DNA of 37,647 bases from an uncultured bacterium. GTDB lineage: Bacteria > Bacillota_I > Bacilli_A > Izemoplasmatales > Hujiaoplasmataceae. Location: NCBI GenBank assembly GCA_903844055.1, contig CAIMSF010000117.1, forward strand, positions 1-37,647. Reading direction: 5' to 3'. The notes under the pieces are model-generated. The model searched no databases. It saw only the letters and a list, made by a program, of their open reading frames with translations, and was not told where the DNA came from. Shown piece by piece: positions 3,225 through 22,134 of this stretch (positions within the stretch are counted from its first letter, which is position 1; every line of letters starts with the position of its first letter). The position numbers and the translations under genes are program-made.

Positions 3225-4742
3225 ATGAAGATGAAAAAATTCGTCAGCTTCGCCCTCATCATGTTGTTCGCCCTGGTCGGTGTCGCCTGCGAGACGGCCA
3301 CGACGACCGCCGCCGCGACCACGACCACGACGTCGGGTTCCGGCCTCACCACGACCGGGACGGGCGTCACCACGACCCAGTCGACCGCCGCCGCGACCAC
3401 GACCACGACGGAATATCACGATCCCGTCACGCTCACCTACGCGGCCTGGAACCTCGGCGCCGTCGACTCGACGACCAACCTCGAACGGCTCATGCTCGAC
3501 GCCTTCGAAGTCCAGTACCCGTGGATCACCGTCGACATCCTCGAGCGTCCGCGCGTCCCCGATTCGACCGGAACGGGCGAGATCGACCAGAACTGGAACG
3601 AATTCCTCGGCGCGAACGCCGCCCTCGGCACCTTGCCTGACGTCTACTTCACCGACTCCGTCGAGACCACGATCATGAACAACTGGTCGCTGGACGTCGC
3701 CGAACTGGCCGAAGCCGATCCCGAATTCATGAACGTCTCCGCCGACCTCCGCAACGCCGCGAACTTCGGCGGCCACATCATGGCCGTCCCGTATGCGGTC
3801 TACTACTTCGGCTACTTCATCAACAAGACGCTCTTCGAAGACCAGAACGGCGACCAGCCGCTGTTCGAGGACACCTGGGACGAATTCGCGGCCAAGGTCG
3901 CCGACGTCGCAAGCCAGAACGTCACCACCGGCAACGGCATCGCCGGCATCTGCGGCATCGACCGTTTGCCCGAGTGGTTCCCCGCGCAGCTCAATCCCGA
4001 TCTCGGCTGGTACACCTACGACGGTTCGCTCCTCCATCTCGACGGACCCGAGTTCTCCGCGACGCTCGACATGTACAACGCGCTGATGCAGAACAAGGCC
4101 TACGTCTACGACGCCCTCTCGGCCGACGAGAAGATGGCCGCCTTCGGGACCACCGGGACGTGGGAGACCTCGAAACTGCTCGCGTACTGGGAATACACCC
4201 CGATCATCGGTTCGATGCTCGACCTCGGCTTCGACGTCGACTTCATCGGCACCCCCGGCACCGCGGCCTCGCACAAGATTCCGGTCGTCCTCGACCTGAT
4301 GTGCGTCTCCTCGCAGACCGACCATCCGGAGGAAGCCTACCTGCTCGCCAAGTGGATGAGTTACGGCAAGGACGGCTACCTCAAGCGGATCGAGATCTCC
4401 AACACCGTCGAAGGCGTCGTCGCCCTCAACATGACGCCGCTCCAGCCGGACGAGGAGATGCTCGACGCCTTCTTCGGGATCTATACGACGTTCACCGAAT
4501 TCCGCAAGGTCGTCGAGTACGACGATTACATCATCGAGCCCAACAAGTACGTCCCCGGCTACATCAAGGCCCGCTGGACCGGCGTGTACAACGCGACGAC
4601 GTCGCTCGGCGACGTCTTCAACGGCGTGATGAGCGGCGCGATCAACTACGCCGACGTCAAGACGATCTGGAACCAGAAGGCCAACAACGCCCTGACCGCG
4701 GCCCGCGAGGCCGTCTTCGAGCAACTCGGAATCATCGGATAA
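3225..4742 (+). CDS. ABC sugar transporter extracellular solute-binding lipoprotein with Thr-rich linker
   Basis: Signal peptide with lipobox (ALVGVAC), Thr/Ala low-complexity linker, then a family-1-type solute-binding protein sequence; RBS AAAGGAG. Confidence 0.88.
   Translation: MKMKKFVSFALIMLFALVGVACETATTTAAATTTTTSGSGLTTTGTGVTTTQSTAAATTTTTEYHDPVTLTYAAWNLGAVDSTTNLERLMLDAFEVQYPWITVDILERPRVPDSTGTGEIDQNWNEFLGANAALGTLPDVYFTDSVETTIMNNWSLDVAELAEADPEFMNVSADLRNAANFGGHIMAVPYAVYYFGYFINKTLFEDQNGDQPLFEDTWDEFAAKVADVASQNVTTGNGIAGICGIDRLPEWFPAQLNPDLGWYTYDGSLLHLDGPEFSATLDMYNALMQNKAYVYDALSADEKMAAFGTTGTWETSKLLAYWEYTPIIGSMLDLGFDVDFIGTPGTAASHKIPVVLDLMCVSSQTDHPEEAYLLAKWMSYGKDGYLKRIEISNTVEGVVALNMTPLQPDEEMLDAFFGIYTTFTEFRKVVEYDDYIIEPNKYVPGYIKARWTGVYNATTSLGDVFNGVMSGAINYADVKTIWNQKANNALTAAREAVFEQLGIIG
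3305..3410 (+). repeat. 28-bp exact direct repeat in the Thr-rich linker
   Basis: GACCGCCGCCGCGACCACGACCACGACG at 3305-3332 and 3383-3410; offset 78 bp (26 codons). Confidence 0.9.
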
Positions 4743-4782: not shown

Positions 4783-7725
4783 GTGATCAAGAAAAGCCTG
4801 TCCCTTCTCGTACTCCTGCTGTTGACGCTCATCGGCGCCGGCTTCCATGCCGGCGTCGTTTCGGCGTCTTCGCCGGATGCGGGACGGACCGACCGGATGG
4901 TTGGCGAGGCCTACAAGGACGTGTTGCCGGACTGGATCGCGGAGGATTACGCCGACAACTCCGGATTCCTTGCGGTCGTGACGCCATCCTCTTTCAGCGG
5001 GACCATCCCGGCGGCCGACACGCGCGGCTATCACGGCCCGGCGGCCAGCTTCGACGCCGGGGGCGTCCTGACGTTCCATGCGAACGTGCCGACGACCGGC
5101 CTTTACCGCTTCGCCCTCGACTTTTTCCCGCTCGACGACGGCTATCTCGATCCCGAGCTGGCGATGCGGGTGAACGGCGCGTCGCCTTACGCCGAAGCCG
5201 GGCAGATCATCCTCTACAAGAACTGGGACGGCGGGGACGCCTTCTCCACCGATCGTTTCGGCAACGACTTCTACGCTTCGCAGTCCGTCATCGCGTCCTG
5301 GACGCACCAGGCGTTCCAGGACCCGATGGGTTTTCATACCGAACCACTGTCTTTCCTCCTGGAAGCCGGCGACAACGTGGTGGAGTTCCGGCTTCTGAAG
5401 GGGGAGGTGCTGCTCGGCGACGTGACGGTCACCGGCCAGTCCGAACTTCCCGACTACCAAAGCTACCTGGGCGGCGGAACCGCCCTGACCGACGACTTCC
5501 TGCTCACCGTCGAGGCCGAGACCCCGGACGCGAAGAACTCCTCGTCGATCCAGGCGGGCGTCGACCGCGACCTCGGGGTGACGCCGTTCTCGGTGACGGC
5601 GCTAAGGCTCAACGTGCTTTCGGGATCCAGTTTCAACTCCGAACGCGAAACCGTCTCTTACGACGTCGTCGTGCCCGCCCCCGGATTCTATCATCTCTCC
5701 TTCAAGGTCCGGCAGGCCGCCCATGCGAACGCGACCGTCTTCCGCACCCTCCGGATCAACGGCGAAATCCCGTTCGCCGAGGCGGCGTCGCTATCGATCG
5801 GCTATTCCTCCGCATGGCGCAACTTCACCCCCGCGGACGCGTCGGGGACGCCCTTCCTCTTCTGGCTCGAAGCGGGGTCCAACGTCGTCTCGCTTTCCGT
5901 CGACCTGTCGGTCTACCGCTCCACCTACGAGACCGCGCAAACGGTCTTGAAGGCGGTCAACCAGCTGTCGCTCGACATCAAGAAGCTGACCGGCAACCAG
6001 GTCGACGAGGACCGCGACTGGTCGATCGTCGACTACCTGCCCACGGTCGAAGCGGATTTGCGGGCGATGGCGGCGGAGCTCCAGGCCGAGATGGACTATG
6101 TCGACGCCCTGAACGGCACGGCACGGCGCTCCGAAATCGAGTCGAGCCTCCGCCTCTGCATCCGCAATCTGACCATCCTCGCCGACAAGCCCGACGAGAT
6201 CCCGCAGAACATCACGATGCTTTCGACCTCGAGTTCCTCGGTCGCCTCGCTGCTCGGCACCGTCGTGTCGCTGCTCGTGGACAGCCCGCTCGACATCGAC
6301 CGTTTCTACGTGTACGGGAACGCCGAACTGCCCGCCGCCAACGCCGGCTTCTTCGCCCGGGCGTGGCTGGCGATCCGGCGGTTCTTCCTCTCGTTCTTCG
6401 AGGACCGCTATTCCGACGTCGCCGCCGAAGGCGAACTCGAAGTCTGGGTCAACCGCTCGAAACAGTACGTCGACCTGATCCAGAAGATGGCGGACGACAC
6501 CTTCACGGCCGCGACGGGAATCCCCGTCAAGGTCTCCGTGATGTCCTCCGAAAGCAAGCTGATCCTCGCCAACTCCGCCGGACAGAATCCCGACGTCGCC
6601 CTCGGCATCGCCTCCTGGATGCCTTACGACATGGGGATCCGCGGCGCCGTCTATGACCTTTCGGCGTTCCGATCCGATCCGGCATTCGCCGAGACGCTCG
6701 CGCTCTTCAATCCCGAATCGCTGATCCCGATGGTCTACGACGAAGGCCTTTACGGCCTTCCCGACACCGAGAACTTCTACGTCCTGTTCTACCGGACCGA
6801 CATCCTCGAAACGCTCGACCTCGACGTTCCCTCGACCTGGGTGGAGGTCACCGAGATGATGCCGGTGCTCAAGCGCTACGGCCTGGATTTCTACATCCCG
6901 CTGTCCAGCCCTGCCTCGCTCAAGGCGTTCGACGCGACCCTTCCCTTCCTCTTCCAATACGGCTCCACCGTCTATTCCGACGACGCCTTCCATGCGGCGA
7001 TCGACGATTCCGCCTCGATCGACGCCCTCACGATGATGACCGAACTCTATACGATCTATTCGATGGACGTCACGGTTTCCTCGTTCTACAACGATTTCCG
7101 GCTCGGCACCTGCCCGATCGGCGTGGGCGATTTCGGCATGTACGTCACCCTCTTGAACGCCGCGCCCGACATCCAGGGACTCTGGTCGATCGCCCTCCTT
7201 CCGGGCGTCGAGAAGGACGGCGGCACGATCGACCGCAGCGCTCCCGGCGCGGCGACGGCCAACATCGTCTTCGCCAACACGGAATCCCCCGATGAAAGCT
7301 GGGAGTTCCTCCGGTGGTGGGCCTCGACCCCGACGCAGGTGACGTTTGAGAACCTGCTTCTGTCGACCCTCGGCAAGTCCTACATGTGGAACTCCGCGAA
7401 CGTCGCGGCGTTCCTCGCGGCGGGATACACGGCATCCGACGTCGACGTCATCGTCGAGCAGTGGAGCTGGCTGCGCGAACTGCCCAAGGTGCCCGGATCG
7501 TATCAGGTCGAGCTCGAGATCTCGAACCTGTGGAACAGCGTCGTCCTCGAGCGCGCCAACCTGCGCGTCGAACTGAACGACGCGGTGATCCGCGCGAACA
7601 AGGAGATCCGCAAGAAGATGAGCGAGTTCGGGTACGCCGACAAGGCGGGGAACATCCTGAAACCCTACCTGTTGGCCAACCGTTCGCTGATCGACGGGTG
7701 GCTGGACGGAGGTGACGGCGCATGA
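4783..7725 (+). CDS. Large secreted protein: two N-terminal carbohydrate-binding-like beta domains, helical linker, C-terminal ABC solute-binding domain
   Basis: 980 aa, GTG start, signal peptide. C-terminal ~430 aa reads as a solute-binding protein ('[39 protein letters not shown]...[11 protein letters not shown]...[19 protein letters not shown]'). Stop overlaps the downstream permease start (ATGA). Confidence 0.82.
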
Positions 7726-8687
7726 CCGACCCGACCGTCCTCATGAAGCCCGCGTCCTTCGCCGACCGCCTCAAGCGCCTCTTCGCGCCGCGCCGCCGGG
7801 TGCGTGACAGCCATCCCGTCGCCTACGCCTTCGTCGCCCCCTACCTGACGATGTTCGCGATCTTCATCATCGTCCCCGTGGCCGCGGCGATCCTGCTTTC
7901 GTTCACCTACTTCGACACCGTCCGGTTCCCGCAGTGGATCGGCTTCGAGAACTACATCAACATCCTCACGAACGACGCCGAATTCATGCAGTACGTGATC
8001 CCGAACACGCTGAAATACGCCGTGATCGTCGGTCCCGGCGGCTACACCCTGTCCTTCCTGATCGCATGGATGCTCGCGCAGCTCACGCCGAAGGTGCGGA
8101 CCATCCTCGCACTCGTCATCTACTCGCCGTCGCTGACCGCCGGCGTCACGATGTCGGTGCTCTGGAAGGTCATCTTCGCCGGCGACGAGACCGGCTACCT
8201 CAACATGTTTTTGATGAACCTCGGCGCGATCAACGAACCCGTCGCGTGGCTCACCTCGGCGGAGACGCTGATGCCGATCATGATCGGCGTCACGCTGTGG
8301 AGCTCGATGGGCGTGGGCTTCCTCGCGATGCTCGCCGGCATCCTCAACGTCAACCAGGACCTCTATGAGGCAGGCTACATCGACGGCATCAAGAACAAGT
8401 TCCAGGAGATGGTCTACATCACGATCCCCACGATCAAGCCGCAGATGCTGTTCGGCGCGGTCATGGCGATCGTCGGCACGTTCGGCTCCTCGGGCATCGG
8501 CGTGGCGCTGTCGGGGTCCAACCCGACGCCGCAGTACGCCGGCCAGCTGATCGTCAACCACATCGAGTACTTCGGCTTCAACAAATACGAAATGGGCTAT
8601 GCGGCGGCGCTCTCGGTCATCCTGCTTCTGGTCATCTATGCGGTCTCGCGGTTCGCGTTCCGCCTCTTCGGGAGCAAAGACGAATGA
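7722..8687 (+). CDS. Carbohydrate ABC transporter permease (MalF/LplB type)
   Basis: 321 aa with multiple TM segments and EAA-like loop '[29 protein letters not shown]'. Confidence 0.9.
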
Positions 8688-9568
8688 AGAAGACCAAGTC
8701 GCGCTTCCAGGCCACCAAGATCAATCCGAAACGCTTCCACCCCGCCCAATTCCGCTACCTCGCCGTGCTCCTGCCGATCGCGGCGTTCATGATCCTGCCT
8801 TTGATCTTCATCTTCAACCACGCCTTCAAGCCGTTCGAGGAGCTGTTCGCGTATCCGCCCCGGTTCTTCGTCAACCGGCCGACGCTGTCCAACTTCACGA
8901 ACCTGTTCGCGGTGACGGGGTCTTCCGGGATCCCGATGTCGCGCTACCTCTTCAACTCGATCGTCGTCACGATCCTCGTCATCGCCGTCAGCGTGCTGAT
9001 TTCGACGATGGCCGGATACGCCCTCTCGAAGCTGCACTTCAAGGGCAAGAAGGCGATCAACGAGATCAACACGATCGCCCTCATGTTCGTCGGCGTCGCC
9101 GTCACGATCCCGCGCTACCTCGTGATCGAGAAGCTCGGCCTGATCGACAACTTCCTCATCCACGTCCTGCCCTATCTCGCGGTCCCGGTCGGCCTCTTCC
9201 TCGTGAAGCAGTTCATCGACCAGATCCCCGGCGAGTTGATCGACGCCGCCCGCGTCGACGGCGCGAACGACTGGCAGATCTACCAAAAGATCGTCGTCCC
9301 GCTCGTCAAGCCGGCGATCGCGACGATCATGATCCTGTCGTTCCAGTCGGTATGGAACTCCGCCGACACCTCGGCGACCTACATCAACGCCGACGTGAAG
9401 AAGACCTTCGCCTTCTACATGGGCACGCTCACGACGAACACGAGCGCCGTCGAAAGCCAGGGCATGGCCGCCGCCGCGTCGCTCATCATGTTCATTCCGA
9501 ACCTCGTCATCTTCATCATCATGCAGAGCAAGGTCATGGACACCATGGCCCACTCCGGGATCAAGTGA
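8684..9568 (+). CDS. Carbohydrate ABC transporter permease (MalG/LplC type)
   Basis: 294 aa; EAA loop '[32 protein letters not shown]'; 4-bp overlap with upstream gene. Confidence 0.92.
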
Positions 9569-9578
9569 GGCGGCCGAC

Positions 9579-11612
9579 ATGAAAAAACTCCTCTGCCTCG
9601 CGCTCCTCACCCTGATCCTGTGTTCCTTCTGCCCCGTCGTCAAGGTGTCCGCGGACACCGACTTCTGGCACGACCACTATCCTTACGACACCTACACCGT
9701 CGACTACCGCGGCCGGCTCACCTACACGCAGACCGCCTACGTCCCGATCGGCACCCTGAACGCTCCCGGGACCCTTCTGATGCCCGAGGACCTCTATATC
9801 CGCGACGGCTTGTTCTACGTCGCCGACACCGGTCACTCCCGCATCGCCGTCTTCGATTCCGACGGAGCGCTCGCTTCCGAGATCGGCACGGGCATCCTCG
9901 ACCGGCCGACCGGCGTCTTCGTGTCCTCCGACGGTTTCGTCTACGTCGCCGACAAGGGCACCGCGCTGGTCCACAAGTTCACCCTGGACGGCGCCTTCGT
10001 CCGCGACTACGGGCGTCCCGTCGAACCGCTCTTCGGCGCCTCCTCGCTGTACGTTCCGACCAAGGTCGTCGTCGGCGCCGGCGAGAACATCTACGTGATC
10101 GGCGAAGGCTCCACCTCCGGCGTGATCCAGCTCAACTACGACGGGTCGTTCCTCGGCTACTTCGGCGTGAACCTCTCGAACAAGTCGCTGATCCAGAAGA
10201 TCGCCGACGTGTTCGTCGTGGGCGACGAGTACGCCGCGAGCACCCCGCCGTCGCCGACGAACATCGCGATCAACGAGAAATCGCTCGTCTACACCTCGAC
10301 CCCCAATACCGAATCCGCCTTGAAGAAGCTCGACGTGAACGGCAACAACATCCTGACGATGGAAAACTACGACGTCGAAAGTGACGTCGTCGACCTCGCC
10401 GTCGACGACCTCGGCTACCTCTACGCGGTCTACGACGACGGCTTCCTCGTCGAATACGATCCGGCCGGCAACCTCCTGTTCGCCTTCGACGTGACCGCCT
10501 CGACGGGCAGCGTCCTCGGCCAGGTCAAGAGCGCGGCGGCGGTCGCGATCGACGCGAGCGGCCTCTTGTTCTGCCTCGACGGGACCGCCAACGCGATCGT
10601 GGCGTACGCCCCGACCGACTTCGCCGACCTCGTGCACCAGGCGATCGGCCGCTACAACGCGGGCGAATACGCGGAGAGCACGGGCTTGTTCGAAGCGATC
10701 CTGCGGCAGAACGCCAACTTCGCGCTCGCCCACGCCGCCCTCGGCAAAGCCTACTACCAGCAAGGCGACTATGAGGCCGCGCTCGCCGAATACCGCCTCG
10801 CCAGCGACGTCGCCGGCTATTCCGAAACCTACTGGAAGATCCGCGACGGATGGCTCAAGGCCAACCTCTCCTGGATCTTCGTCGCCCTCATCGCGCTGGC
10901 GGCCGCATCCGCCATCCTCAAACGGGTCGACCGCAAGACGGCCGTCTTCGCCGGCCTCCGGCGGGCCGTCCGGTCGGTCGCCGGGCGGACCGACGTCCGC
11001 CGCTACACGCTCGCCTTCCACATCCTCAAGGATCCCGCCGACGCCTTCTTCCAGATCAAGCGGCTCCATCGCGGGACGCCGGCCTCGGCGACGGTGCTGA
11101 TCGTCCTGTTGTTCATCGAATACTTGGTCATGCTCCGGTACACCGGCTTCGTGTTCGACACCGGCGCCGATTCGGTGAACCTGTTCGGCGCGGCCGCCGG
11201 CTTCTTCGGGATCTTCTTCCTGTTCGTGTTCTCCAACTACCTGATCTCCACCCTCTCGGACGGCGAGGGCTGGCTCAAGGACGTGTACGTCGGAACCGCC
11301 TACGCGCTGTCGCCGATCCTCGTCGGCTGGCTGCCGCTCACGCTCCTGAGCAACGTCCTCACCTTGAACGAGTCGGTCCTGTACCAGCTCGGCACCGCCG
11401 TGCTCTACGGCTGGACGGCGGTCCTGGTTTTCCTGTCCGCCAAGGAGATCCACAACTACGAGATCGGCGAGACGGTCAAGAACCTGCTCATGACCCTCTT
11501 CGCGATGGTCATCATCGTCCTGATCGGCTTCATCGTCTACGTCTTCGGTTCCGAACTTTGGGACTTCCTCGTTTCCTGGGGAAAGGAGCTGATCAACCGT
11601 GTGGCATCGTAG
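9579..11612 (+). CDS. Secreted NHL-repeat beta-propeller / TPR protein with C-terminal YIP1-like membrane domain
   Basis: 677 aa: signal peptide; NHL-like repeats ('PEDLYIRDGLFYVADTGHSRIAVFDSDG', 'RPTGVFVSSDGFVYVADKGTALVHKF'); TPR-like 'ALAHAALGKAYYQQGDYEAALAEYRLA'; C-terminal multi-TM segment. Confidence 0.8.
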   Translation: MKKLLCLALLTLILCSFCPVVKVSADTDFWHDHYPYDTYTVDYRGRLTYTQTAYVPIGTLNAPGTLLMPEDLYIRDGLFYVADTGHSRIAVFDSDGALASEIGTGILDRPTGVFVSSDGFVYVADKGTALVHKFTLDGAFVRDYGRPVEPLFGASSLYVPTKVVVGAGENIYVIGEGSTSGVIQLNYDGSFLGYFGVNLSNKSLIQKIADVFVVGDEYAASTPPSPTNIAINEKSLVYTSTPNTESALKKLDVNGNNILTMENYDVESDVVDLAVDDLGYLYAVYDDGFLVEYDPAGNLLFAFDVTASTGSVLGQVKSAAAVAIDASGLLFCLDGTANAIVAYAPTDFADLVHQAIGRYNAGEYAESTGLFEAILRQNANFALAHAALGKAYYQQGDYEAALAEYRLASDVAGYSETYWKIRDGWLKANLSWIFVALIALAAASAILKRVDRKTAVFAGLRRAVRSVAGRTDVRRYTLAFHILKDPADAFFQIKRLHRGTPASATVLIVLLFIEYLVMLRYTGFVFDTGADSVNLFGAAAGFFGIFFLFVFSNYLISTLSDGEGWLKDVYVGTAYALSPILVGWLPLTLLSNVLTLNESVLYQLGTAVLYGWTAVLVFLSAKEIHNYEIGETVKNLLMTLFAMVIIVLIGFIVYVFGSELWDFLVSWGKELINRVAS

Positions 11613-13884
11613 CTTGACGAAGAAACTATCGCTTGCGGCGATCCTCCTGTCCGCCGCGTTCGTCTCCGGCGCGATCCTCGCCGCCGACCGCCGCGTCCCG
11701 GCGGACACGCTCGACGGCGGCTCCGCGGTCCTCGAGGCGACCCGCTTCACCTCCAACCAGTATACCCAGACCGATGACGAGTCCGTCGTCGACAGTTCCC
11801 TGACGATTCCCGGCACCTTCGCGCTCGTCGGCGAGACCGACGCCCTCCAGCTCTATGCGGAAAGCCCGAACGGGGCGATCCGCGTCGTGAACAAGGCGGA
11901 CGGCTACGTCTACGGCTCGAGCTTCGATGCGGCGCTCGTCCCGATCCCCTACTTCAACACGACCTGGGAGGGCATCGTCAACTCGGCCGCCGTGATCGAG
12001 TACTACTCCTACAACGACACGAACGGCGCCTACATCGTGAACGAGGAATCGTTCTACACGAGTCCGCTCACGACGATGGACTACCATCCCGTCGACGGCG
12101 GCTACGAACTTTCCGTCGTCTACGGCGAATCCTCGATCGGCCTTACGATCCGGGTCTATGTCGAAGGGAACTACCTCCATGTCGAAGTCCCCGCCGAATC
12201 GATCACCGAAGGCGACGCCTTCAAGCTCCGGAGCGTCAAATGCTTCCCGTTCCTCGGCTCCGTCTTCGGCGATTCGATCCCCGGCTACGTCTTCGTCCCG
12301 GACGGTTCCGGCGCCCTGATCCGCTACAAGCCGATCGACGCCGTCACCGACATCTACGAGTTCAACTACTACGGGTCGGACACCGGGATCCTCCGCGCCG
12401 CCGTCGAGGAACCCTCCATCAACTTCCCGGTCACGGGGATGGTCCACGGCATCCGCCAGCACGGCTTCGTGCAGATCATCGAAGACGGCGACGCCTTCGC
12501 GACGCTCGTCGTCTCCCCCGCGAAGAACAACCTGAAATACTACTACTCCTACAACAAGTTCGTCTACCGCGGCACCTACCGCTCGCCCTCCTCGAAGGCC
12601 GACGCCGCCTCCGGCGCCGGGCAGCAGGTGATCGAAGCCGGCCGCAACTCGTGCGACGTGTCGGTCGTCTACGCCTTCCTTTCCGGCGAGGACGCCGACT
12701 ATGTCGGGATGGCGAACGCCTATCAGGACTATCTCGTGGATGTTTCCGGCGTCGCGCGCAACACCCCGACGCCCGGGCTCGTGCCCGCTCTGATCGAACT
12801 CGTCGGCGCCGAGAAAAGCCCCGGCTTCCTCTTCGACGAGACGGTCGTCATGACCTCGTACGCCGCGGCCGGCGCGATCCTCTCCGACCTCGCGGCCGCG
12901 ATCCCCGCCCTCACCGTCGTCTACAAGGGCTGGAGCGAGGGCGGATACTCCGCCGGCGGCGCGCGTTACGACCGCCGCGAAGCCGCCCTCGGCACCCAGG
13001 CTGAATTGCTCGACCTGATCGAAACCTACAACCGGGGGAACAACGCGCTCATGCTCTACGCCGACTTCGTGCGCGTCTCCGACGCCGGCTCCTACAACGT
13101 CTACCGTGACGTCGCGCAGCGGATCGACACCTCGCTTCACACGGCGCAGGGTCTCTTGCGGACCTGGAACTACCTCAGTCCCGCCCGTTCCGCCACCTAC
13201 CTCGGCGGCGCTTCCGAACGACTCGCCGGGTGGGGCGCTTCCGAACTCGCGCTCGGTTCGATCGGCTATCTCCTCTATTCCGATTTCCGCGACGCCGCCG
13301 TTCCGGTGGACCGCGCGGAAGCCCTCGCGATCTACCGGGAGGCGCTCGCGGAAGGCGCCATGAAGCATTCCGTCTATCGCGCCAACGCCTACCTGCTCGC
13401 CTACGCGAACCGCTACCTGGCGGTGCCGACGACTACCTCCGGCTTTACGATCTACACCGACACGGTCCCGTTCGTCGCGATCCTGCTCGCCGGACTGATG
13501 GAAGCCTACGGTCCGTACGCGAACTTCTTCGCCAACCGCACCGAGGAGACCCTGCGGTCGATCGATTATGGCCTGTTGCCGTCGTTCATTCTCACCGAGG
13601 CCTCGGCGTACCGTCTGAACGAGACCGAACTCGCCAGCCTCTATTCCTCCTCCTACGACACCTGGGGCGACACCGTCCGGGACATCTACGCGGAGGTTTC
13701 GGACGTCCTCTCGGCCTTCTACGGAAGCCGGGTGGCATCGCGCCGCGTCCCCGCCCCCGGCGTCGTCGCGACGCTGTACGCAAACGGCGTCACGGTCTAC
13801 GTGAACTACACAGGGTCCGACTATGTCGAAGGCCCCCTCACGGTCCCGGCGCAGTCCAGCGAGGCGGTGATCCCCGATGAATGA
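11599..13884 (+). CDS. DUF5696-like secreted/membrane-anchored protein; possible glycoside-hydrolase-like fold
   Basis: 761 aa, GTG start overlapping the upstream gene by 14 bp, N-terminal TM/signal segment. General resemblance to DUF5696 proteins found beside carbohydrate ABC transporters. Confidence 0.65.
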   Translation: MWHRSLTKKLSLAAILLSAAFVSGAILAADRRVPADTLDGGSAVLEATRFTSNQYTQTDDESVVDSSLTIPGTFALVGETDALQLYAESPNGAIRVVNKADGYVYGSSFDAALVPIPYFNTTWEGIVNSAAVIEYYSYNDTNGAYIVNEESFYTSPLTTMDYHPVDGGYELSVVYGESSIGLTIRVYVEGNYLHVEVPAESITEGDAFKLRSVKCFPFLGSVFGDSIPGYVFVPDGSGALIRYKPIDAVTDIYEFNYYGSDTGILRAAVEEPSINFPVTGMVHGIRQHGFVQIIEDGDAFATLVVSPAKNNLKYYYSYNKFVYRGTYRSPSSKADAASGAGQQVIEAGRNSCDVSVVYAFLSGEDADYVGMANAYQDYLVDVSGVARNTPTPGLVPALIELVGAEKSPGFLFDETVVMTSYAAAGAILSDLAAAIPALTVVYKGWSEGGYSAGGARYDRREAALGTQAELLDLIETYNRGNNALMLYADFVRVSDAGSYNVYRDVAQRIDTSLHTAQGLLRTWNYLSPARSATYLGGASERLAGWGASELALGSIGYLLYSDFRDAAVPVDRAEALAIYREALAEGAMKHSVYRANAYLLAYANRYLAVPTTTSGFTIYTDTVPFVAILLAGLMEAYGPYANFFANRTEETLRSIDYGLLPSFILTEASAYRLNETELASLYSSSYDTWGDTVRDIYAEVSDVLSAFYGSRVASRRVPAPGVVATLYANGVTVYVNYTGSDYVEGPLTVPAQSSEAVIPDE

Positions 13885-14773
13885 GTCCGGCAGGATCCGC
13901 AGGCCGCTCAAGCGCGAGAAGCGGATGAACCTCGTCGGCTGGTCGATGCTCCTGCCGTGGGCGTTCGGCTTCCTCGTCTTCACCCTCTACCCGATCCTCT
14001 CCTCCTTCCGCTACAGCCTCTCCGAGGTCATCCTCGACGGCGCGGGGATCCGGGTGACCTTTGTCGGCCTCGAAAACTACCGCGCCGCGTTCTCCTCGGC
14101 GGCCGGCTTCGCCTTCCTCCAGTCGGTCCTCGACTTCGCCCTCGAGGTGCTCTTCAAGGTCCCGATCATCACCGTCTTCGCGATCATCATCGCCGTCCTC
14201 CTGAACCAGAAGATCAAGCTGCGCGGCTTCTTCCGCGCGATCTACTTCCTCCCCGTCATCATCGCCTCGGGACCGGTCATCAACCAGCTCGCCAGCCAGG
14301 GCGCGGCGACGATCCCGCTCGTCGAGCAGATGGGCATCCTCGACTTCATCAACCGCACCTTCGCCCCCGCCCTCGCCCGGCCGATCGCCGGCGTGTTCGA
14401 TGAATTGATCGTGATCCTGTGGTTCTCCGGGGTGCAGATCCTCCTGTTCATCGCGGCGCTCCAGAAGATCGACCGAAGCGTCTACGAGGCCGCGATGATC
14501 GACGGAGCGGGTCCGTGGGAATCGTTTTGGAAGATCACCATGCCGGCGCTTGCGATGATGGTCCGGGTGTCGGTCGTCTTCACGATCATCAACCTCGCGA
14601 CCTTCTCGGAGAATCCGGCGATCCAGCACATCAGGAGCAACATGTTCGCCCTCGAGACCGGCTTCGGCTTCTCCTCGGCGATCGCCTGGATCTACTTCGT
14701 GGCGCTCGCCCTCATCCTCGGCATCGCCGTCGGCGCCCTGAGCGCCTTCGGCCGGAAGAAGGCGAGAACATGA
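13877..14773 (+). CDS. Carbohydrate ABC transporter permease (LplB/MalF type), second pair
   Basis: 298 aa multi-TM; 'SVYEAAMIDGAGPWESFWKITMPALAMM' EAA loop; 8-bp overlap with upstream gene. Confidence 0.9.
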   Translation: MNESGRIRRPLKREKRMNLVGWSMLLPWAFGFLVFTLYPILSSFRYSLSEVILDGAGIRVTFVGLENYRAAFSSAAGFAFLQSVLDFALEVLFKVPIITVFAIIIAVLLNQKIKLRGFFRAIYFLPVIIASGPVINQLASQGAATIPLVEQMGILDFINRTFAPALARPIAGVFDELIVILWFSGVQILLFIAALQKIDRSVYEAAMIDGAGPWESFWKITMPALAMMVRVSVVFTIINLATFSENPAIQHIRSNMFALETGFGFSSAIAWIYFVALALILGIAVGALSAFGRKKART

Positions 14774-15681
14774 TGGACCTGAACCGCCGGATGAAGATCC
14801 GCCGCTTCTTCCTCGGCAAGGACGGCATCGTCGGCAAAATCGTCCTCTACGGCCTGCTCCTCACGATCGGCTTCGTCTACCTCTTCCCGCTCATCAAGAT
14901 GTTCACGACCTCGATCATGGACCTCTCCGACCTCGTCAACCCGGTCGTCGAGTGGATCCCCACGAAGCTCTACCTCGAGAACTACCGGACCGGCCTGATC
15001 GTCCTCAAGTACGGCTCGACGCTCCTCTTCAGCCTCGCCGTCACGCTCGTCCCGGCGCTCCTCCAGACCGCCGTCACGTCCCTCACCGGCTACGCCCTCG
15101 CGAAGTTCAAGGTGCGCGGCCGACGCATCGTGTTCGCCCTCATCCTGCTCACCTACCTGCTTCCCCAGCAGGTGTACATGATCCCGAAGTTCGTCCTCTT
15201 CGACCAGTTCGGGATCCTCAAGACGGCGTGGTCGATCATCTTCCCGGCCACCTTCGGACAGGGCCTGTCCTCGGCCATCTTCATCCTCATCTTCTACCAG
15301 TTCTTCCGGATCCAGCCGCCCGCGCTCGACGAATCGGCCGAGATCGACGGGGCGAACCCGTATCAGATCTTCTTCCGGATCGGCGTGCCGCTCGCGGCGC
15401 CGGCGTATCTGAGCGCGTTCCTCTTCTCGTTCGTCTGGTACTGGAACGAAACGTACATCTCCTCCCTGTTCCTCGGGACGGACCTGTACACGCTGCAGCT
15501 GAAGCTCTTCAATTTCCAATCGCAGTTCAATCTCGCCACCGGCATCGCCCAGACGGCGACCAACGAAGCGATCCGCTATGCGGCGACGATCCTGATCATC
15601 CTGCCGGTCCTCGTCGTGTATGCGGTCATGCAGAAATGGTTCGTCGAGGGCATCGACAAGACCGGCGTCACCGGCGAGTAA
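14770..15681 (+). CDS. Carbohydrate ABC transporter permease (MalG/LplC type), second pair
   Basis: Frame ends at 15681. ATG at 14770 (MMDLNRRMKIRRFFLGKDG...) overlaps the previous stop (ATGA); 'DESAEIDGANPYQIFFRIGVPLAAPAYLS' EAA loop. The listed 14419 start is an artefactual upstream extension. Confidence 0.92.
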   Translation: MMDLNRRMKIRRFFLGKDGIVGKIVLYGLLLTIGFVYLFPLIKMFTTSIMDLSDLVNPVVEWIPTKLYLENYRTGLIVLKYGSTLLFSLAVTLVPALLQTAVTSLTGYALAKFKVRGRRIVFALILLTYLLPQQVYMIPKFVLFDQFGILKTAWSIIFPATFGQGLSSAIFILIFYQFFRIQPPALDESAEIDGANPYQIFFRIGVPLAAPAYLSAFLFSFVWYWNETYISSLFLGTDLYTLQLKLFNFQSQFNLATGIAQTATNEAIRYAATILIILPVLVVYAVMQKWFVEGIDKTGVTGE

Positions 15682-15696
15682 AGGGAGGGACCCAAA

Positions 15697-17157
15697 ATCG
15701 GCAAGATCAAACTCATCCTATCGCTTCTCCTGGCAAGTCTCCTGACCGGCTGCGTCGCCGCCACGACGGCGACTTCGACCACCGCCGCGACCACCGCGCA
15801 AACGACCCTGACCACGACCTCCGGCGCCGCCACGACGACCGAACCCACCACCCAGACGACGACCCAGACGACCGCCACGCCGTACGTCTACGACCCGATC
15901 GACGTCCCCGCCGAGGTCCTGCTCGAGGAACGGCTCTCCTTCAAGTTCTTCTGGGAGGTCGTCAACGGCGATCCCCAGAGCGCCGGTTACGGGATGATCT
16001 CCGACCGCTACAACTACCAGACCGGCGCCGTCGGCGTCGCCTCGATCGCCTCGATCGGTTTCGGCCTCGCGGCCCTGCCGGCCGGCGTCGAAAACGACTG
16101 GATCAACGACGACGAAGGCTATGAGCGCGCCCTCGGCACGCTCGAGACGATGGCCGGACTGCAGCGCACGCACGGCTTCTACTACCACTTCCTCAACATG
16201 TCCAACGGCGGCCGCGCCGGCTATACGGAAGTCTCGATCATCGACACCGCCCTCTTCATCTGCGGGGCCATCACCGCCGGCGAATACTTCGGCGGCGACG
16301 TCAAGCTCCTCGCCGACGAGATCGCCGCCGGGGTCGAGTGGGACTGGTACTACAACGACGCCCAGCAGGTCTTCTACATGGGCTACTCCCCCGAAAGCGG
16401 CTTCTCCGGCGCCTGGAACATGTACGCCGAGCAGCTGATGGTCTACATCCTCGCCGCCGGTTCCATCGACCACAAGGTCGGCAAGGAGGCCTACGACCGG
16501 ATGAAGTCGCTTGCGACGCGCAAGTCGTACGGCACCTCCGGCGTCTTCTACAACACCCCCGCCGGCACGCTCTTCACCTACCAGTTCGCCCACGCCTGGT
16601 TCGATTCGGGCTCGATGCTCGACGCCGACGGCTACGACTGGTTCGACAACTCGCGCCGGGCGTCGATCGCCGCGTACGAGTACGCGGTCGCGGCCTCGCA
16701 GGCCTACAAGACGCTCTCCAGCGTATCGTGGGGCCTCACCGCCTCCGACGGGCCCGACGGCTACAAGGGCAACTACGGCAACCTGCCCTCCAACGGCGGG
16801 AACTACATCGACGGCACGCTCGCCCCGTGCGGGGCGATCGGCTCGATCGTCTTCACGCCCGAGCTGGTGATCCCGGCGATCCAGCACTACGCCTCGATCC
16901 CCGCCCTCCAGGGCCGATACGGCTTCCGCGACGCCTACAACCTCGGCGTCACCGAAACCGCGCTGCCGGCCGTCCGCCGGCCGGTCGCGCCAATCCCCGA
17001 AACCGGCTGGTTCAACACCGACGTGATCGGCATCGACAAGGGCATCACCGTCCTGATGATCGAGAACTACCGCTCCGGCCTCATCTGGCATTACTTCATG
17101 CAAAACGAAGCCGTCCGGCGCGGCCTCGCCGAACTCGGCTTCACCGTCAAACCCTAG
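15697..17157 (+). CDS. GH144-like endo-beta-1,2-glucanase / 'glucoamylase-family' lipoprotein with Thr-rich linker; apparent ATC start codon
   Basis: Open frame from 15682 gives (M/I)GKIKLILSLLLASLLTGC-VAATTATSTTAATTAQTTLTTTSGAATTTEPTTQTTTQTTATPYVYDPIDVPAEVLLEERLSFKFFWEVVNGDPQSAGYGMISDRYN..., i.e. signal peptide, lipobox LTGC and linker before the listed ORF (15994). RBS AGGGAGGG at 15682-15689. Body resembles the GH144/PF10091-type family ('GFYYHFLNMSNGGRAGYTEVSIIDTALFICGAI'). Confidence 0.8.
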   Translation: MGKIKLILSLLLASLLTGCVAATTATSTTAATTAQTTLTTTSGAATTTEPTTQTTTQTTATPYVYDPIDVPAEVLLEERLSFKFFWEVVNGDPQSAGYGMISDRYNYQTGAVGVASIASIGFGLAALPAGVENDWINDDEGYERALGTLETMAGLQRTHGFYYHFLNMSNGGRAGYTEVSIIDTALFICGAITAGEYFGGDVKLLADEIAAGVEWDWYYNDAQQVFYMGYSPESGFSGAWNMYAEQLMVYILAAGSIDHKVGKEAYDRMKSLATRKSYGTSGVFYNTPAGTLFTYQFAHAWFDSGSMLDADGYDWFDNSRRASIAAYEYAVAASQAYKTLSSVSWGLTASDGPDGYKGNYGNLPSNGGNYIDGTLAPCGAIGSIVFTPELVIPAIQHYASIPALQGRYGFRDAYNLGVTETALPAVRRPVAPIPETGWFNTDVIGIDKGITVLMIENYRSGLIWHYFMQNEAVRRGLAELGFTVKP

Positions 17158-17226: not shown

Positions 17227-19881
17227 ATGAAAAGAAATCTGATTCTGGCTTTTCTGACCCTGTGCGTGACGGCGATCCTGATCGCCTGCGACGGGATCAC
17301 GACCACCGTCCCGGTGACGACGGCCACGACCGCCGCCGTCACGACCACGACGCAGCCGGGAACGACCGCCACCACGACGACCACGCAGGCGACGACCACC
17401 ACCCAGGCCACGACCACGCAGACCACCACGACCACGACGACGACCACCCTGCCGCCGACGATGCCCTTGGTCGCCGACATCAACCCGACGCCCGAAGGCC
17501 TCTACGGCATCTATGACCTCGCCGTCGCCGAAAACGTCGCGACGATCGTCTACGACAAGCACGGCCATGCCTGGCCGGTCATGGAAATCGCGATCGAAGA
17601 GGATGTCGAGCGCTTCAACAAGCTCGTCGTCACCGCCAGCGGCGACGGCGTCCTGCTCGTCCGCTTCGTCGGCGCGACCGTCTATGAGGTACGCCTCAAC
17701 CTCGTCTCCGGCGGCTCGACCTTCCAGATCGACCTCCGCGACTTCGACGACTTCCTCGCCGGCCTCACCGCGATCGAACTCGTCGCCGACCCCGGCGTCG
17801 CCGCCTCCCGTGGCACGATCGTCCTCTCGGCCTTCCAGTTCGAAACCGGCACCGCCTTCGGCAGCGTCATCGAACTCAAGGCCCCGGGCTACAACGCGAC
17901 GTACGAATGGGTCTCCAACGATCCCGGCGTCTACACCTTCACGACCGAGATGGACGACTCCGTCACGATCGGCTTCACCAAGCTCGCCGGTCAGGAATGG
18001 TCCTGGGCGGGCCGCCTCTTCTCGACGGATGAGACCCAGGGCTACAACATGATGACCGTCGTGATCCAGGGAACCGCCGGAACGCAGTTCCTCGTCAAGC
18101 CGAACGACCAGGGCTCGATGGAAAAATGGATCAACCTCGACGGCACCGTCCAGACGGTCCAGATCCCGCTCACCGCGGACCTCTTCCGCCTCGTCTGCTT
18201 CGCCCATCCCGGCAGCGCCCCGGCGTCCGGAACGGTCTCGCTCAAGAGCATGATCCTCTCCTACGTCACCCCCGCCGCCGCGGACGTGAGCGCCTATGAG
18301 ACGTTCGACTTCGAAGACGGCTGGGTCGCCGGCGACGCCGGCGTCTACACGATCGGCTACGCCGACGGCAAGACGACGATCGCCTGGACCGACCGCGCCA
18401 ACGCCTGGTCCTACCTCAAGAACGAATTCGCCCCGAACCTCTCCGCCCACAACACGGTCACGATGGTCGTCAAGGGCACGATCGGCCAGCAGCTCATCAT
18501 CAAGCCCAACGACAACGGCGCCTATGAACGGACCATCACCTTCGACGGCACCGAACAGACCTTCACCTTCACGCTCGCCACGAAACCGACGAAGGTCATC
18601 GTCTTCGCCGACCCGCTCCTCGGCGGCGCGTCCGGCTCCTTCGAAATCATCTCCGCCACGACCTCCTTCGTCCCCGCGGGCGAGAACCTGAACGTCGGCT
18701 GGGCCGAGAACGACGCGGACACCTATGACATCACCTTCGAAGCCAGCGGCCTCGTCTCCGTCGACTACACCAAGCTCGCCGGCCAGGAATGGGTCTTCAT
18801 GAAGACGACCTTCGACCCGCTCGACGTCGTCGGCATGAACGTCCTCGCCCTCACCCTGCAGGGCGTCGCCGGCAAGCAGGTCCTCGTCAAGCCGAACGAT
18901 TACTGGAAGACCGAAACCTGGGTCACCTTCGAAGACGAGAACCCCGTCACGCTCTACTTCAACCTGTTTGACTTCGAACAGGATTCCTTCCTCAACATCA
19001 TCCTCTTCGCCGAACCCGGAACCGCTCCCGCCACTGGCAGCTTCTCGATCCTCAAGCTCGAACTCTCCTACGCGCAGCCCGATGCCGTCGAACGCGACGT
19101 CGTCGTCGACTTCGAAGAAGGCTGGATCGACAACGACGGCGGCATCTTCACCTTCACCCGCGTCGACGGCGTGACCAACGTCGCCTGGAACAAGCCCGTC
19201 CAGAACGACTGGCAGTATTTCAAGAACACCTTCGAAGGCAACCTCGCCAACCACAACACGATCACGATGGTCGTCCAGGGCACGATCGGCCAGCAGATCC
19301 TGATCAAGCCGAACGACAAGTGGTATCTCGAACAGACCGTCACGTTCGACGGCACCGAACAGACCGTGACCTTCTCGCTCGAGGAAGCCCCGCTGTTCGT
19401 GATCATCTTCGCCGATCCGTTCAACCACGGCCTCACCGGCGACTTCGACATCATCTCCGCGACCGTCACGTTCGAACCGGTTCCCTATGAAGTGACCGGC
19501 GGCTGGGCGGAAAACGATCCCGGCACGTACACGATCGACCAGGACAACCTCGATGGTTCCGTCGTCGTCAACTACGCCACGACCGATACCTACCAGTTCA
19601 TGATCAACCACTTCGACGCCGACCTCGCGCTGGGCAACAACACCCTCACGATCGTCGTCCAGGGCACCCTCGGGAACACCCTGCTCGTCAAGCCCAACGA
19701 CTCCGGCGCGCTCGAAACCGTCATCACCTTCGACGGCACCGAGCAGACCCTCGTCATCACCGCCGCCGCGTTCTCGAAGATCCTGCTCTTCGCCGCCCCC
19801 GGCACCGCCGGCGGACAGACCGGCACCTTCACGATCGTCAGCCTGACGCTCACCTACGTCGAACCGCTCCCGGCCGAATGA
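17227..19881 (+). CDS. Lipoprotein with Thr-rich linker and about five tandem ~130-aa beta-rich domains (putative carbohydrate-binding adhesin)
   Basis: 884 aa; lipobox LIAC; T-rich linker; recurrent motif '[LI][VI]KPND......E..[IV]TFDGTEQT'; RBS AGGAGG. Confidence 0.78.
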   Translation: MKRNLILAFLTLCVTAILIACDGITTTVPVTTATTAAVTTTTQPGTTATTTTTQATTTTQATTTQTTTTTTTTTLPPTMPLVADINPTPEGLYGIYDLAVAENVATIVYDKHGHAWPVMEIAIEEDVERFNKLVVTASGDGVLLVRFVGATVYEVRLNLVSGGSTFQIDLRDFDDFLAGLTAIELVADPGVAASRGTIVLSAFQFETGTAFGSVIELKAPGYNATYEWVSNDPGVYTFTTEMDDSVTIGFTKLAGQEWSWAGRLFSTDETQGYNMMTVVIQGTAGTQFLVKPNDQGSMEKWINLDGTVQTVQIPLTADLFRLVCFAHPGSAPASGTVSLKSMILSYVTPAAADVSAYETFDFEDGWVAGDAGVYTIGYADGKTTIAWTDRANAWSYLKNEFAPNLSAHNTVTMVVKGTIGQQLIIKPNDNGAYERTITFDGTEQTFTFTLATKPTKVIVFADPLLGGASGSFEIISATTSFVPAGENLNVGWAENDADTYDITFEASGLVSVDYTKLAGQEWVFMKTTFDPLDVVGMNVLALTLQGVAGKQVLVKPNDYWKTETWVTFEDENPVTLYFNLFDFEQDSFLNIILFAEPGTAPATGSFSILKLELSYAQPDAVERDVVVDFEEGWIDNDGGIFTFTRVDGVTNVAWNKPVQNDWQYFKNTFEGNLANHNTITMVVQGTIGQQILIKPNDKWYLEQTVTFDGTEQTVTFSLEEAPLFVIIFADPFNHGLTGDFDIISATVTFEPVPYEVTGGWAENDPGTYTIDQDNLDGSVVVNYATTDTYQFMINHFDADLALGNNTLTIVVQGTLGNTLLVKPNDSGALETVITFDGTEQTLVITAAAFSKILLFAAPGTAGGQTGTFTIVSLTLTYVEPLPAE
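17899..19866 (+). repeat. Five diverged in-gene domain repeats in apparent A-B-A-B-A order
   Basis: 'KPND' motif recurs five times. A-type units share 'KLAGQEW' and 'GWAEND'; B-type units share 'DFE[DE]GW', 'GTIGQQ', 'FADP' and '[ED]F[ED]IISAT'. Approximate units: 17899-18276, 18298-18672, 18694-19080, 19105-19482, 19498-19866. Confidence 0.8.
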
Positions 19882-19901
19882 TCTGAGTCCCATGCAACAA
19901 A

Positions 19902-19934
19902 AAACGGTACGCATCGCTGCGTGCCGTTTTTTTT
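19902..19934. terminator. Bidirectional Rho-independent terminator between convergent genes
   Basis: AAACGGTACGCA-tcgc-TGCGTGCCGTTTTTTTT; A-tract on one side and T-tract on the other. Confidence 0.9.
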
Positions 19935-19944
19935 GTGATCCGAA

Positions 19945-22086
19945 TCATCGTTTCAAGACGAAGTCGGCGGCTTTCAGATGGGCAGAGTCCGGGCCGACGG
20001 ACACCGTGAAGACGCCCGGATCCCAGACGACGGAACCGTCCGGAAGACGGTAGGACAGGTCCGAAAGGCCAAGTTCGAACCGGACCGTTTGCGTTTCGAA
20101 GGCCGAAAGCCGGATTTTTCGGAACGCCTTCAGTTCGAGGACGGGACGGCTGATCCGCGCGGCCTTGTCGCGCAGGTACAGCTGGACCGTCTCGACGCCC
20201 GCGCGGGCGGTTTCGTTGTGGAGCTCGACGGTGACGGCGAGGGACTCGGAAGGCGTGATCGCGGACGCGGAGAGCACCGGCGCGCCGTAGGAGAAGGCGG
20301 CGTAGGAGAGGCCGAAGCCGAACGGGAAGCGCGGCGAATTGAGCTCGTCGATGTACTTCGTGACGTATTCGCGGGGATGGAGCTCGTGGTGGTTCGGACG
20401 ACCCGTCGGCAGGCCGTCGTAGTGGACGGGGATCTGCCCGACGCTGCGCGGGAAGGACATCGTGAGCTTGCCGGAGGGATCGGCGATGCCGTAGAGCAGG
20501 TCGCAGACGGCCTCCGCTCCCTTCGTGCCGAGGAACCAGGTTTCCAGGATCGCGTCGGCTTCGAGGATGTTCTCGAGGACGAGCGGACGGCCGTTCTGGA
20601 GGACGGCGACCGCCGTTCCGTGCAGCGACTTGACGAACCCGACGAGTTCCGCCTGTTTCCCCGGAAGCGTGATGTCCGCGCGCGAATGGGCTTCGCCGGA
20701 CTGGTGGGCGTTCTCGCCGAGCAAAAGCAGGACGACGTCCGCCTGTCTGAGCTTCTCGATGTCCGAAGCGTCGTACGACGCGATGGAATCTCCGTCCTTG
20801 ACGATCGTCAGGTCGATCCCGCGGCGCCGCAGGACTTCCGCGATCGATTCGTTTTTGGCGTTGTTGCCATGCCAGGACCAGGGACCGTTGGTCTCGTGCG
20901 AGGTGGCGTACGGGCCGATCAGGGCGATCCGCAGCGCCGGGTGAAGCGGAAGCGCCATCCGATCGTTTTTGAGGAGGACGGCGCTTTCGAGGGCGACCCG
21001 CTTCGACAGCGCGAGATGGGCTTCGGAGAGCATCGTCAATTGTTCCTTGACGGGATCGGCGTTATGGAAGGGGTCGGCGAACAGGCCGAGTTCCTCCTTC
21101 AGGTCGAGGATGCGGAGGACCGCCTCGTCGATCAGGGAAAGATCCACGACACCGTCGGTCACCAGCTTCTCGAGGTGGTTGACGTAGTCGGTCGAGGCCA
21201 TCTCGATGTCGAGTCCGGCGAGGACGCCCAGCCGGGCGGCGTCGCGTTCGTCCTCGGCGGCGCCGTGGGCGAGGACCTCGTGGAGCGAATCGTAGTCGGT
21301 GATCGTCACGCCGGAAAACTTCCAGCGGTCGCGCAGGATCGTCCTGAGCAGATATCTGTTGATCGTGCAGGGGACGCCCTCGATCGTGTTGAAGGCGGTC
21401 ATCACGCCGCGGGCGCCGGCTTCGATCGCTTTCCGGTATCCTTCCAAATAACCGCCCTCAAGGGCCTGGCGGGAGAGGTCGACGGCGGCGTACTCGCGGC
21501 CGCCCTCCGGGGCGCCGTAGCCCGCGAAATGCTTGACGCACGACGCGACGGTCCCCTCGCCGGCCAGATCGTCCCCCTGGAAGCCCGCGACTGAGGCGGC
21601 CGCGAACAGCCCGAGCAGGTAAGGGTCTTCGCCGAAGCTTTCGACGACGCGTCCCCAGCGGGGGTCGCGCACGAGGTCGGCCATCGGTGCGTAGGTCATG
21701 TGGACGCCGGCCGTCGCGGCTTCCAGGGCGGCGACGCGGGCGGCAATCCTGGCGTTCTCCGGGTCCCACGAGCAGGACAGCGCGAGCGGGACCGGGAAGA
21801 TGGTCCGGTAGCCGTGGATCACGTCGGCGCCGAAGAGCAGCGGAATCCCGAGCCGGTTCTTCGCGAGGTATTTCTTCTGGACTTCGATCATCTCCCGGGC
21901 GTCGCCGATGCCGAGCGCGGTGCCGGCGGAGAAGATCTTCGCCTCGTCGAGCTTGAGGTCGCGGATCGGACCGGCGGCTTCCTTCTCGAGGTCGGCGACG
22001 AAAAACCACGGCGAGAGTTGCATCATCTGGCCGATTTTTTCGGGGATGGTCATCTGTTTCAACAAGTCTTTCGTGTTCAAGGGCAT
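19945..22086 (-). CDS. GH3 family beta-glucosidase
   Basis: MPLNTKDLLKQMTIPEKIGQMMQLSPWF...; GH3 motifs 'DPRWGRVVESFGEDPYL', 'VKHFAGYGAPEGGREY' and nucleophile region 'GVTITDYDS'; C-terminal FnIII-like domain. The longer ORF to 23454 is an antisense extension. Confidence 0.95.
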   Translation of the reverse strand: MPLNTKDLLKQMTIPEKIGQMMQLSPWFFVADLEKEAAGPIRDLKLDEAKIFSAGTALGIGDAREMIEVQKKYLAKNRLGIPLLFGADVIHGYRTIFPVPLALSCSWDPENARIAARVAALEAATAGVHMTYAPMADLVRDPRWGRVVESFGEDPYLLGLFAAASVAGFQGDDLAGEGTVASCVKHFAGYGAPEGGREYAAVDLSRQALEGGYLEGYRKAIEAGARGVMTAFNTIEGVPCTINRYLLRTILRDRWKFSGVTITDYDSLHEVLAHGAAEDERDAARLGVLAGLDIEMASTDYVNHLEKLVTDGVVDLSLIDEAVLRILDLKEELGLFADPFHNADPVKEQLTMLSEAHLALSKRVALESAVLLKNDRMALPLHPALRIALIGPYATSHETNGPWSWHGNNAKNESIAEVLRRRGIDLTIVKDGDSIASYDASDIEKLRQADVVLLLLGENAHQSGEAHSRADITLPGKQAELVGFVKSLHGTAVAVLQNGRPLVLENILEADAILETWFLGTKGAEAVCDLLYGIADPSGKLTMSFPRSVGQIPVHYDGLPTGRPNHHELHPREYVTKYIDELNSPRFPFGFGLSYAAFSYGAPVLSASAITPSESLAVTVELHNETARAGVETVQLYLRDKAARISRPVLELKAFRKIRLSAFETQTVRFELGLSDLSYRLPDGSVVWDPGVFTVSVGPDSAHLKAADFVLKR

Positions 22087-22134
22087 CGTTCCTTCCGAGC
22101 CCGCGCCGGCGGATGGACGGCGTGGGGCGACTGT

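Follow-up and report, generated by a model that had tools for sequence, protein, structure and literature searches.

The SusE, SusF and SGBP proteins of Bacteroidota (PDB entries 7kwc and 7kwb, found by Foldseek) are among the closest described analogs of the protein studied here. Like it, they are non-enzymatic multi-domain surface lipoproteins, and each is encoded beside its own glycoside hydrolase and importer. For β-1,2-glucan itself, a close described system is the Listeria innocua cluster lin1839-1841 (PMC3960220, PMC12369401). Lin1841 binds sophoro-oligosaccharides (PMC12369401). A literature search for β-1,2-glucan-binding modules returned few papers, the relevant one being the report on CBM92, which binds sophorose with a KD of 882 μM (PMC11039641). 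CBM92 is a β-trefoil with three sites per domain and prefers β-1,6-glucan. A search for glucan-binding lipoproteins of Acholeplasma found no paper.

We analyzed a 37,647-nt stretch of DNA from an uncultured bacterium of the Izemoplasmatales (the window). Its locus shares GH94, GH3 and an ABC transporter with the Listeria cluster, and the binding protein of that cluster is a PDB relative of the large solute-binding protein in the window; the available text of the two reports describes neither a GH144 nor a module-array lipoprotein there. The modules of the window protein are unrelated in fold to CBM92. Compared with SusE, SusF and SGBP, the organism has a single membrane, an ABC importer takes the place of SusCD, and the lipoprotein repeats one module family six times with unrelated sequence. 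The simplest account is that the array lipoprotein would be a single-membrane counterpart of SusE/SusF-type proteins.

Operon around the array gene

The genes run in the order GH94, lipoprotein resembling a solute-binding protein, large solute-binding protein, two permeases, NHL-TPR-Yip1 protein, DUF5696 protein, two permeases, GH144, array and convergent GH3.

803..3190, + strand: GH94 phosphorylase (PF17167, 4e-103; 8rf0, 4e-137)
3225..4742, + strand: lipoprotein, candidate second solute-binding protein, judged by eye from the translation
4783..7725, + strand: large solute-binding protein, Lin1841-like over residues 567-854 (PF01547; 5ysb, 5e-17)
7722..9568, + strand: two ABC permease genes (first, BPD_transp_1, 3e-8; both conserved in orthologous operons)
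9579..11612, + strand: NHL repeat-TPR-Yip1 membrane protein
11599..13884, + strand: DUF5696 protein (PF18952, 5e-143)
13877..15681, + strand: two ABC permease genes, the second at about 14775-15681 (orthologue matches)
15682..17157, + strand: GH144-type endo-β-1,2-glucanase, Thr-rich lipoprotein (LLTGC; PF10091, 8.6e-61)
17227..19881, + strand: array gene and final gene of the operon, encoding an 884-aa modular surface lipoprotein
19900..19933, no strand assigned: probable bidirectional intrinsic terminator between the array gene and convergent GH3, CGGTACGCATCGCTGCGTGCCGTTTTTTTT (from sequence)
19945..22101, - strand: GH3 β-glucosidase, convergent, start approximate (GH3-like sequence)

The GH144 neighbor carries PF10091 and is homologous over the whole barrel to tested endo-β-1,2-glucanases, which places it in that family. 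Its best PDB match is XcSGL (8xul, 2e-61), a tested β-1,2-glucanase of GH144, for which the clan residues E239, F286 and Y367 have been named (PMC12102758). The GH94 phosphorylase is closest to the GH94 domain of CGS (8rf0). With Lin1841 as the closest match of the large solute-binding protein, three genes point independently to β-1,2-glucan. The lipoprotein at 3225..4742 has a weak Pfam match over an N-terminal stretch only, and the second permease of the second pair has no Pfam match. The NHL-TPR-Yip1 membrane protein (9579-11612) is a constant member of the operon, and DUF5696 constantly sits between both permease pairs. We found no paper on DUF5696; both proteins gain a testable context here. 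The minus-strand part of the 19900..19933 terminator was also recovered by a terminator scan.

The start of the GH144 gene is unusual. Between the preceding stop codon and the lipoprotein signal (window 15682-15710) there is no ATG, GTG or TTG. GGGAGG lies a few bases 5' of an in-frame ATC, and the resulting start IGKIKLI is shared with the sister species, so translation possibly begins at ATC, a rare start codon.

Architecture of the array lipoprotein

The array gene begins 69 nt past the GH144 stop codon, with the motif AGGAGG about 6 nt 5' of its ATG. The first-pass annotation of this DNA likewise put it straight after a GH144-like gene. The protein consists of a lipoprotein signal, a stalk and six β modules of about 130 aa in the order 0-A-B-A-B-A.

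17227..17289, + strand: lipoprotein signal peptide, lipobox ILIAC, Cys at residue 21 (from sequence)
17290..17475, + strand: Thr-rich disordered stalk, about residues 22-83 (composition and model)
17476..17862, + strand: module 0, N-terminal type without KPND, residues 84-212 (profiles and tree)
17863..18285, + strand: module A1, residues 213-353, KPND at 18097
18286..18687, + strand: module B1, residues 354-487, KPND at 18502 (evidence includes an AlphaFold model)
18688..19092, + strand: module A2, residues 488-622, KPND at 18889
19093..19491, + strand: module B2, residues 623-755, KPND at 19306
19492..19878, + strand: module A3, residues 756-884, KPND at 19690

In the full-length predicted model, the signal region forms a helix (residues 2-19) and pLDDT is below 50 across residues 18-73. 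Thr makes up 59% of stalk residues 22-80.

KPND occurs five times, at residues 291, 426, 555, 694 and 822, against an expectation of 0.0015 per shuffled sequence. All five KPND-bearing units claimed at first pass are present, with pairwise scores 22-67 SD above shuffles. B1 and B2 are 52% identical, A1 and A2 37%, and the remaining pairs among the five lie within 29-43%. The reported motifs are found as described: KLAGQEW in units 1 and 3, GWAEND in units 3 and 5, and GTIGQQ, FADP and F.IISAT in units 2 and 4, with like motifs spaced by 792 bp (A1-A2) and 804 bp (B1-B2). TFDGTEQT, assigned to all five, is exact in units 2, 4 and 5 but not in 1 and 3. The degenerate leading unit that had been suspected is a real sixth unit, module 0, so that the total is six and not five. 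The five-unit profile scores module 0 at 0.09 in the window, yet reaches 1e-11 on its orthologues. An enlarged profile, itself including module-0-type units, scores module 0 of the window at 3e-23.

Fold and conserved residues of the modules

Searched by sequence, the whole protein gave nothing meaningful in Pfam, NCBIfam or PDB. With a profile of 65 units, PDB yielded no chain even at an E-value limit of 5. The 65 units gave no convincing match in Pfam (best E 0.002), and PF02018 (CBM_4_9) matched one of them (E 0.003) without reaching its gathering cut-off. No phage relatives were found. When the modules were aligned by hhalign with CBM_4_9 domains from related loci, the probability was 83% and the score 37.4; none of 60 column shuffles exceeded 16.2, and the reversed control scored 15.6. 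This profile match argues for remote homology of the modules to CBM_4_9.

The AlphaFold model of B1 is all β, with pLDDT 93.3 and pTM 0.87. Its best Foldseek matches in PDB are mostly carbohydrate-binding modules at TM of about 0.5-0.63, including CBM4 (1gui, 3e-6), CBM29, CBM86, CBM11, CBM22, CBM6, CBM35 and a porphyran CBM, together with the glycan-binding lipoprotein 7kwc. The matches likewise include Eph ligand-binding and Cry domains. Because these jelly rolls match too, the fold by itself is no proof of sugar binding. The proposal of a carbohydrate-binding module thus withstood the structural comparison, which covers one unit, and the modules are predicted to be discrete non-catalytic domains of CBM-type fold. 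A Foldseek search with the six-domain model (pTM 0.38) was set aside; it returned mostly multi-jelly-roll proteins (reelin, Cry, Vip3).

The jelly-roll fold is shared with the CBM4/9 superfamily and with CBM4, 29, 86, 11 and 22 structures, but the window modules carry their own KPND..E signature. Near-invariant polar and aromatic alignment positions across A and B modules are Lys34, Trp39, Lys71-Pro-Asn-Asp and Glu79 (B1 residue numbering is alignment position + 2). As expected for a putative binding site, these Lys, Trp, KPND and Glu residues are retained, judging from the alignment. The suggestion of a new family stands in so far as Pfam, NCBIfam and PDB gave no sequence match, and the modules form a probable new CBM-like family relative to these three databases.

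Module types and evolution of the array

We built a maximum-likelihood tree with 106 modules of 20 loci; its alignment is short, and it leaves many forks open. In it, units 1, 3 and 5 of the window fall within an A clade (support 100/98) and units 2 and 4 within a B clade (98/97), while module 0 forms a separate clade (100/99). Four other B-type rows fall outside the B clade. The grouping of 1/3/5 versus 2/4, on which the A/B scheme had been staked, is thus recovered, and the alternation of A and B units along the array holds. Pairing of B1 with B2 inside the genus of the window is weakly supported (92/65).

A duplication of a two-domain A-B cassette had also been proposed; a recent one is not supported. 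Each of A1, A2 and A3 has its own orthologous partner in G013, and the array therefore predates the split from this genome; in addition, B1-B2 are closer to each other than A1-A2. This points to an old array whose B modules may have been homogenized or may evolve more slowly.

Modules were assigned by type-specific profiles to define the grammar of each array. The window shares the grammar 0-A-B-A-B-A with its sister species and with G013. Several other members of the family of the window have 0-1-A-B-A-A-B-A and longer, and family f2 and other families of the class have 0-1-2-A-A-A and longer. Complete arrays hold six to ten modules. In G065 and UBA12080 the tree places the expansion of the array tail inside their own lineages.

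Conservation of context and co-occurrence with GH144

Of the arrays in the family of the window, 13 have their upstream flank on the contig, and every one of these lies directly downstream of GH144; G009 and G019 are left out of this count, as contig ends cut them. In family f2, the same transporter operon is preceded by an array or a module protein. The operon link is also seen in other families of the class (L079-L081, L086, L089, L090, L096, L101), while L082-L085 and L087 showed no operon match within the stretches fetched. GH3 homologues adjoin module arrays in L044, L056, L080, L086, L089, L090, L096 and L101.

PF10091 is present in 21 of 90 genomes of the order. Strong modules occur in 19 of these 21 GH144 genomes (in G011 as a fragment at the end of a contig) and in 0 of the 69 genomes without GH144. 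The Fisher value for this association is 1.5e-17, computed ignoring relatedness of the genomes. Presence is patchy inside genera (1 of 5 genomes of g3, 1 of 8 of g18), so joint gain or loss of modules and GH144 looks likely. A few genomes that lack GH144 carry weaker, distant modules, and distant modules are also found in non-glucan settings (LRR, DUF4886).

Modules are linked to carbohydrate-active loci, and enzyme fusion is seen only in part, as half-length, distant relatives that follow GH16 domains (L106, L107). These two were considered as proof of enzyme fusion, and the argument is downgraded because only half of the module aligns and KPND is missing.

Proposed function and alternatives

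We consider the protein to be a surface glycan-binding lipoprotein that concentrates β-1,2-glucan for GH144 and the transporter, with a probability of about 0.7. Of the glucan-binding role suggested at first pass, the conserved β-1,2-glucan operon and the co-occurrence with GH144 are observed, whereas sugar binding itself, β-1,2-glucan as the ligand and an avidity role of the array are inferred. Acholeplasmatales, among which we count this bacterium, are known to lack a cell wall. The acylated cysteine would anchor the lipoprotein in the outer leaflet of the single membrane, and the Thr-rich stalk would raise the array off the membrane. The six CBM-type jelly-roll modules may then hold β-1,2-glucan via many weak contacts, while the GH144 lipoprotein next door would cleave the glucan so held. 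Uptake of the oligosaccharides would fall to the Lin1841-like binding protein and the permeases, and their breakdown inside the cell to GH94 and GH3.

The ligand may be a different one: another β-glucan, an α-glucan, or a glucan on the cell of a neighbor. The CBM matches cover xylan, β-glucan, mannan and porphyran binders, one strong module is found alongside a pullulanase-associated domain, and partial, distant relatives follow GH16 domains. However, the enzymes and the transporter around full arrays indicate β-1,2-linkages and module presence tracks GH144, so we regard another ligand as unlikely. Somewhat less likely again is a spacer, scaffold or adhesin, whose modules would not bind the substrate but would project neighboring surface proteins, glue them together (GH144 to the transporter, for instance) or fix the cell to a surface. 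Arrays of six to ten modules whose tails expand within lineages are stalk-like, and jelly rolls are able to bind proteins. A pure spacer would not need near-invariant polar and aromatic positions in modules that are about 60% different elsewhere, though, and the protein already has a Thr-rich stalk.

These bacteria have no wall and carry surface glycolipids, which would suit an envelope protein for the cell's own glycolipids or capsule whose place in the operon is merely historical. In two families of the order, however, the modules and GH144 are present together and absent together, which argues against this idea, and we consider it very improbable.

The preferred reading, capture of β-1,2-glucan, can be extended, tentatively and at slightly less than even odds: the modules would found a new β-1,2-glucan-specific CBM family, and the array would provide surface capture for a 'Sus-like' system of wall-less bacteria. 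Its N-terminal modules (0, 1, 2) would be fixed, and the number of modules in its A/B tail would evolve fast to tune avidity and reach.

If true, small wall-less bacteria carry a full capture-cut-import system for β-1,2-glucan. A protein dedicated to binding this polymer, which symbionts and pathogens make, would serve as a probe for it, and the module array would be a natural series for multivalent-binding studies.

Variant arrays and related proteins

Several loci depart from the common pattern. L057 (7831-12303) encodes a 1491-aa surface protein with a single strong A module, pullulanase-associated and lamin-tail domains; no catalytic domain was found in it, and it lies upstream of a transporter operon of the same type. 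In L100 (5082-7535) and L103 (5795-8203), a distant module is fused to DUF4886 and a weak CBM20-like region. The array of G031 (L048, 14889-17435) is split over three ORFs, by a frameshift or an assembly error. A second GH144 is present on another contig of genome G000 (G000:C128:24016-24678), and G003 and G025 have both copies on one contig, with the second about 17 kb upstream of the first. In L054 (16886-19678) and L055, another tail module (WTAYGATV...WWDVNIQSP...FKIEGGG) replaces A/B after modules 0 and 1. These tail modules are near-identical tandem copies, and similar units end the CBM_4_9 protein of L093.
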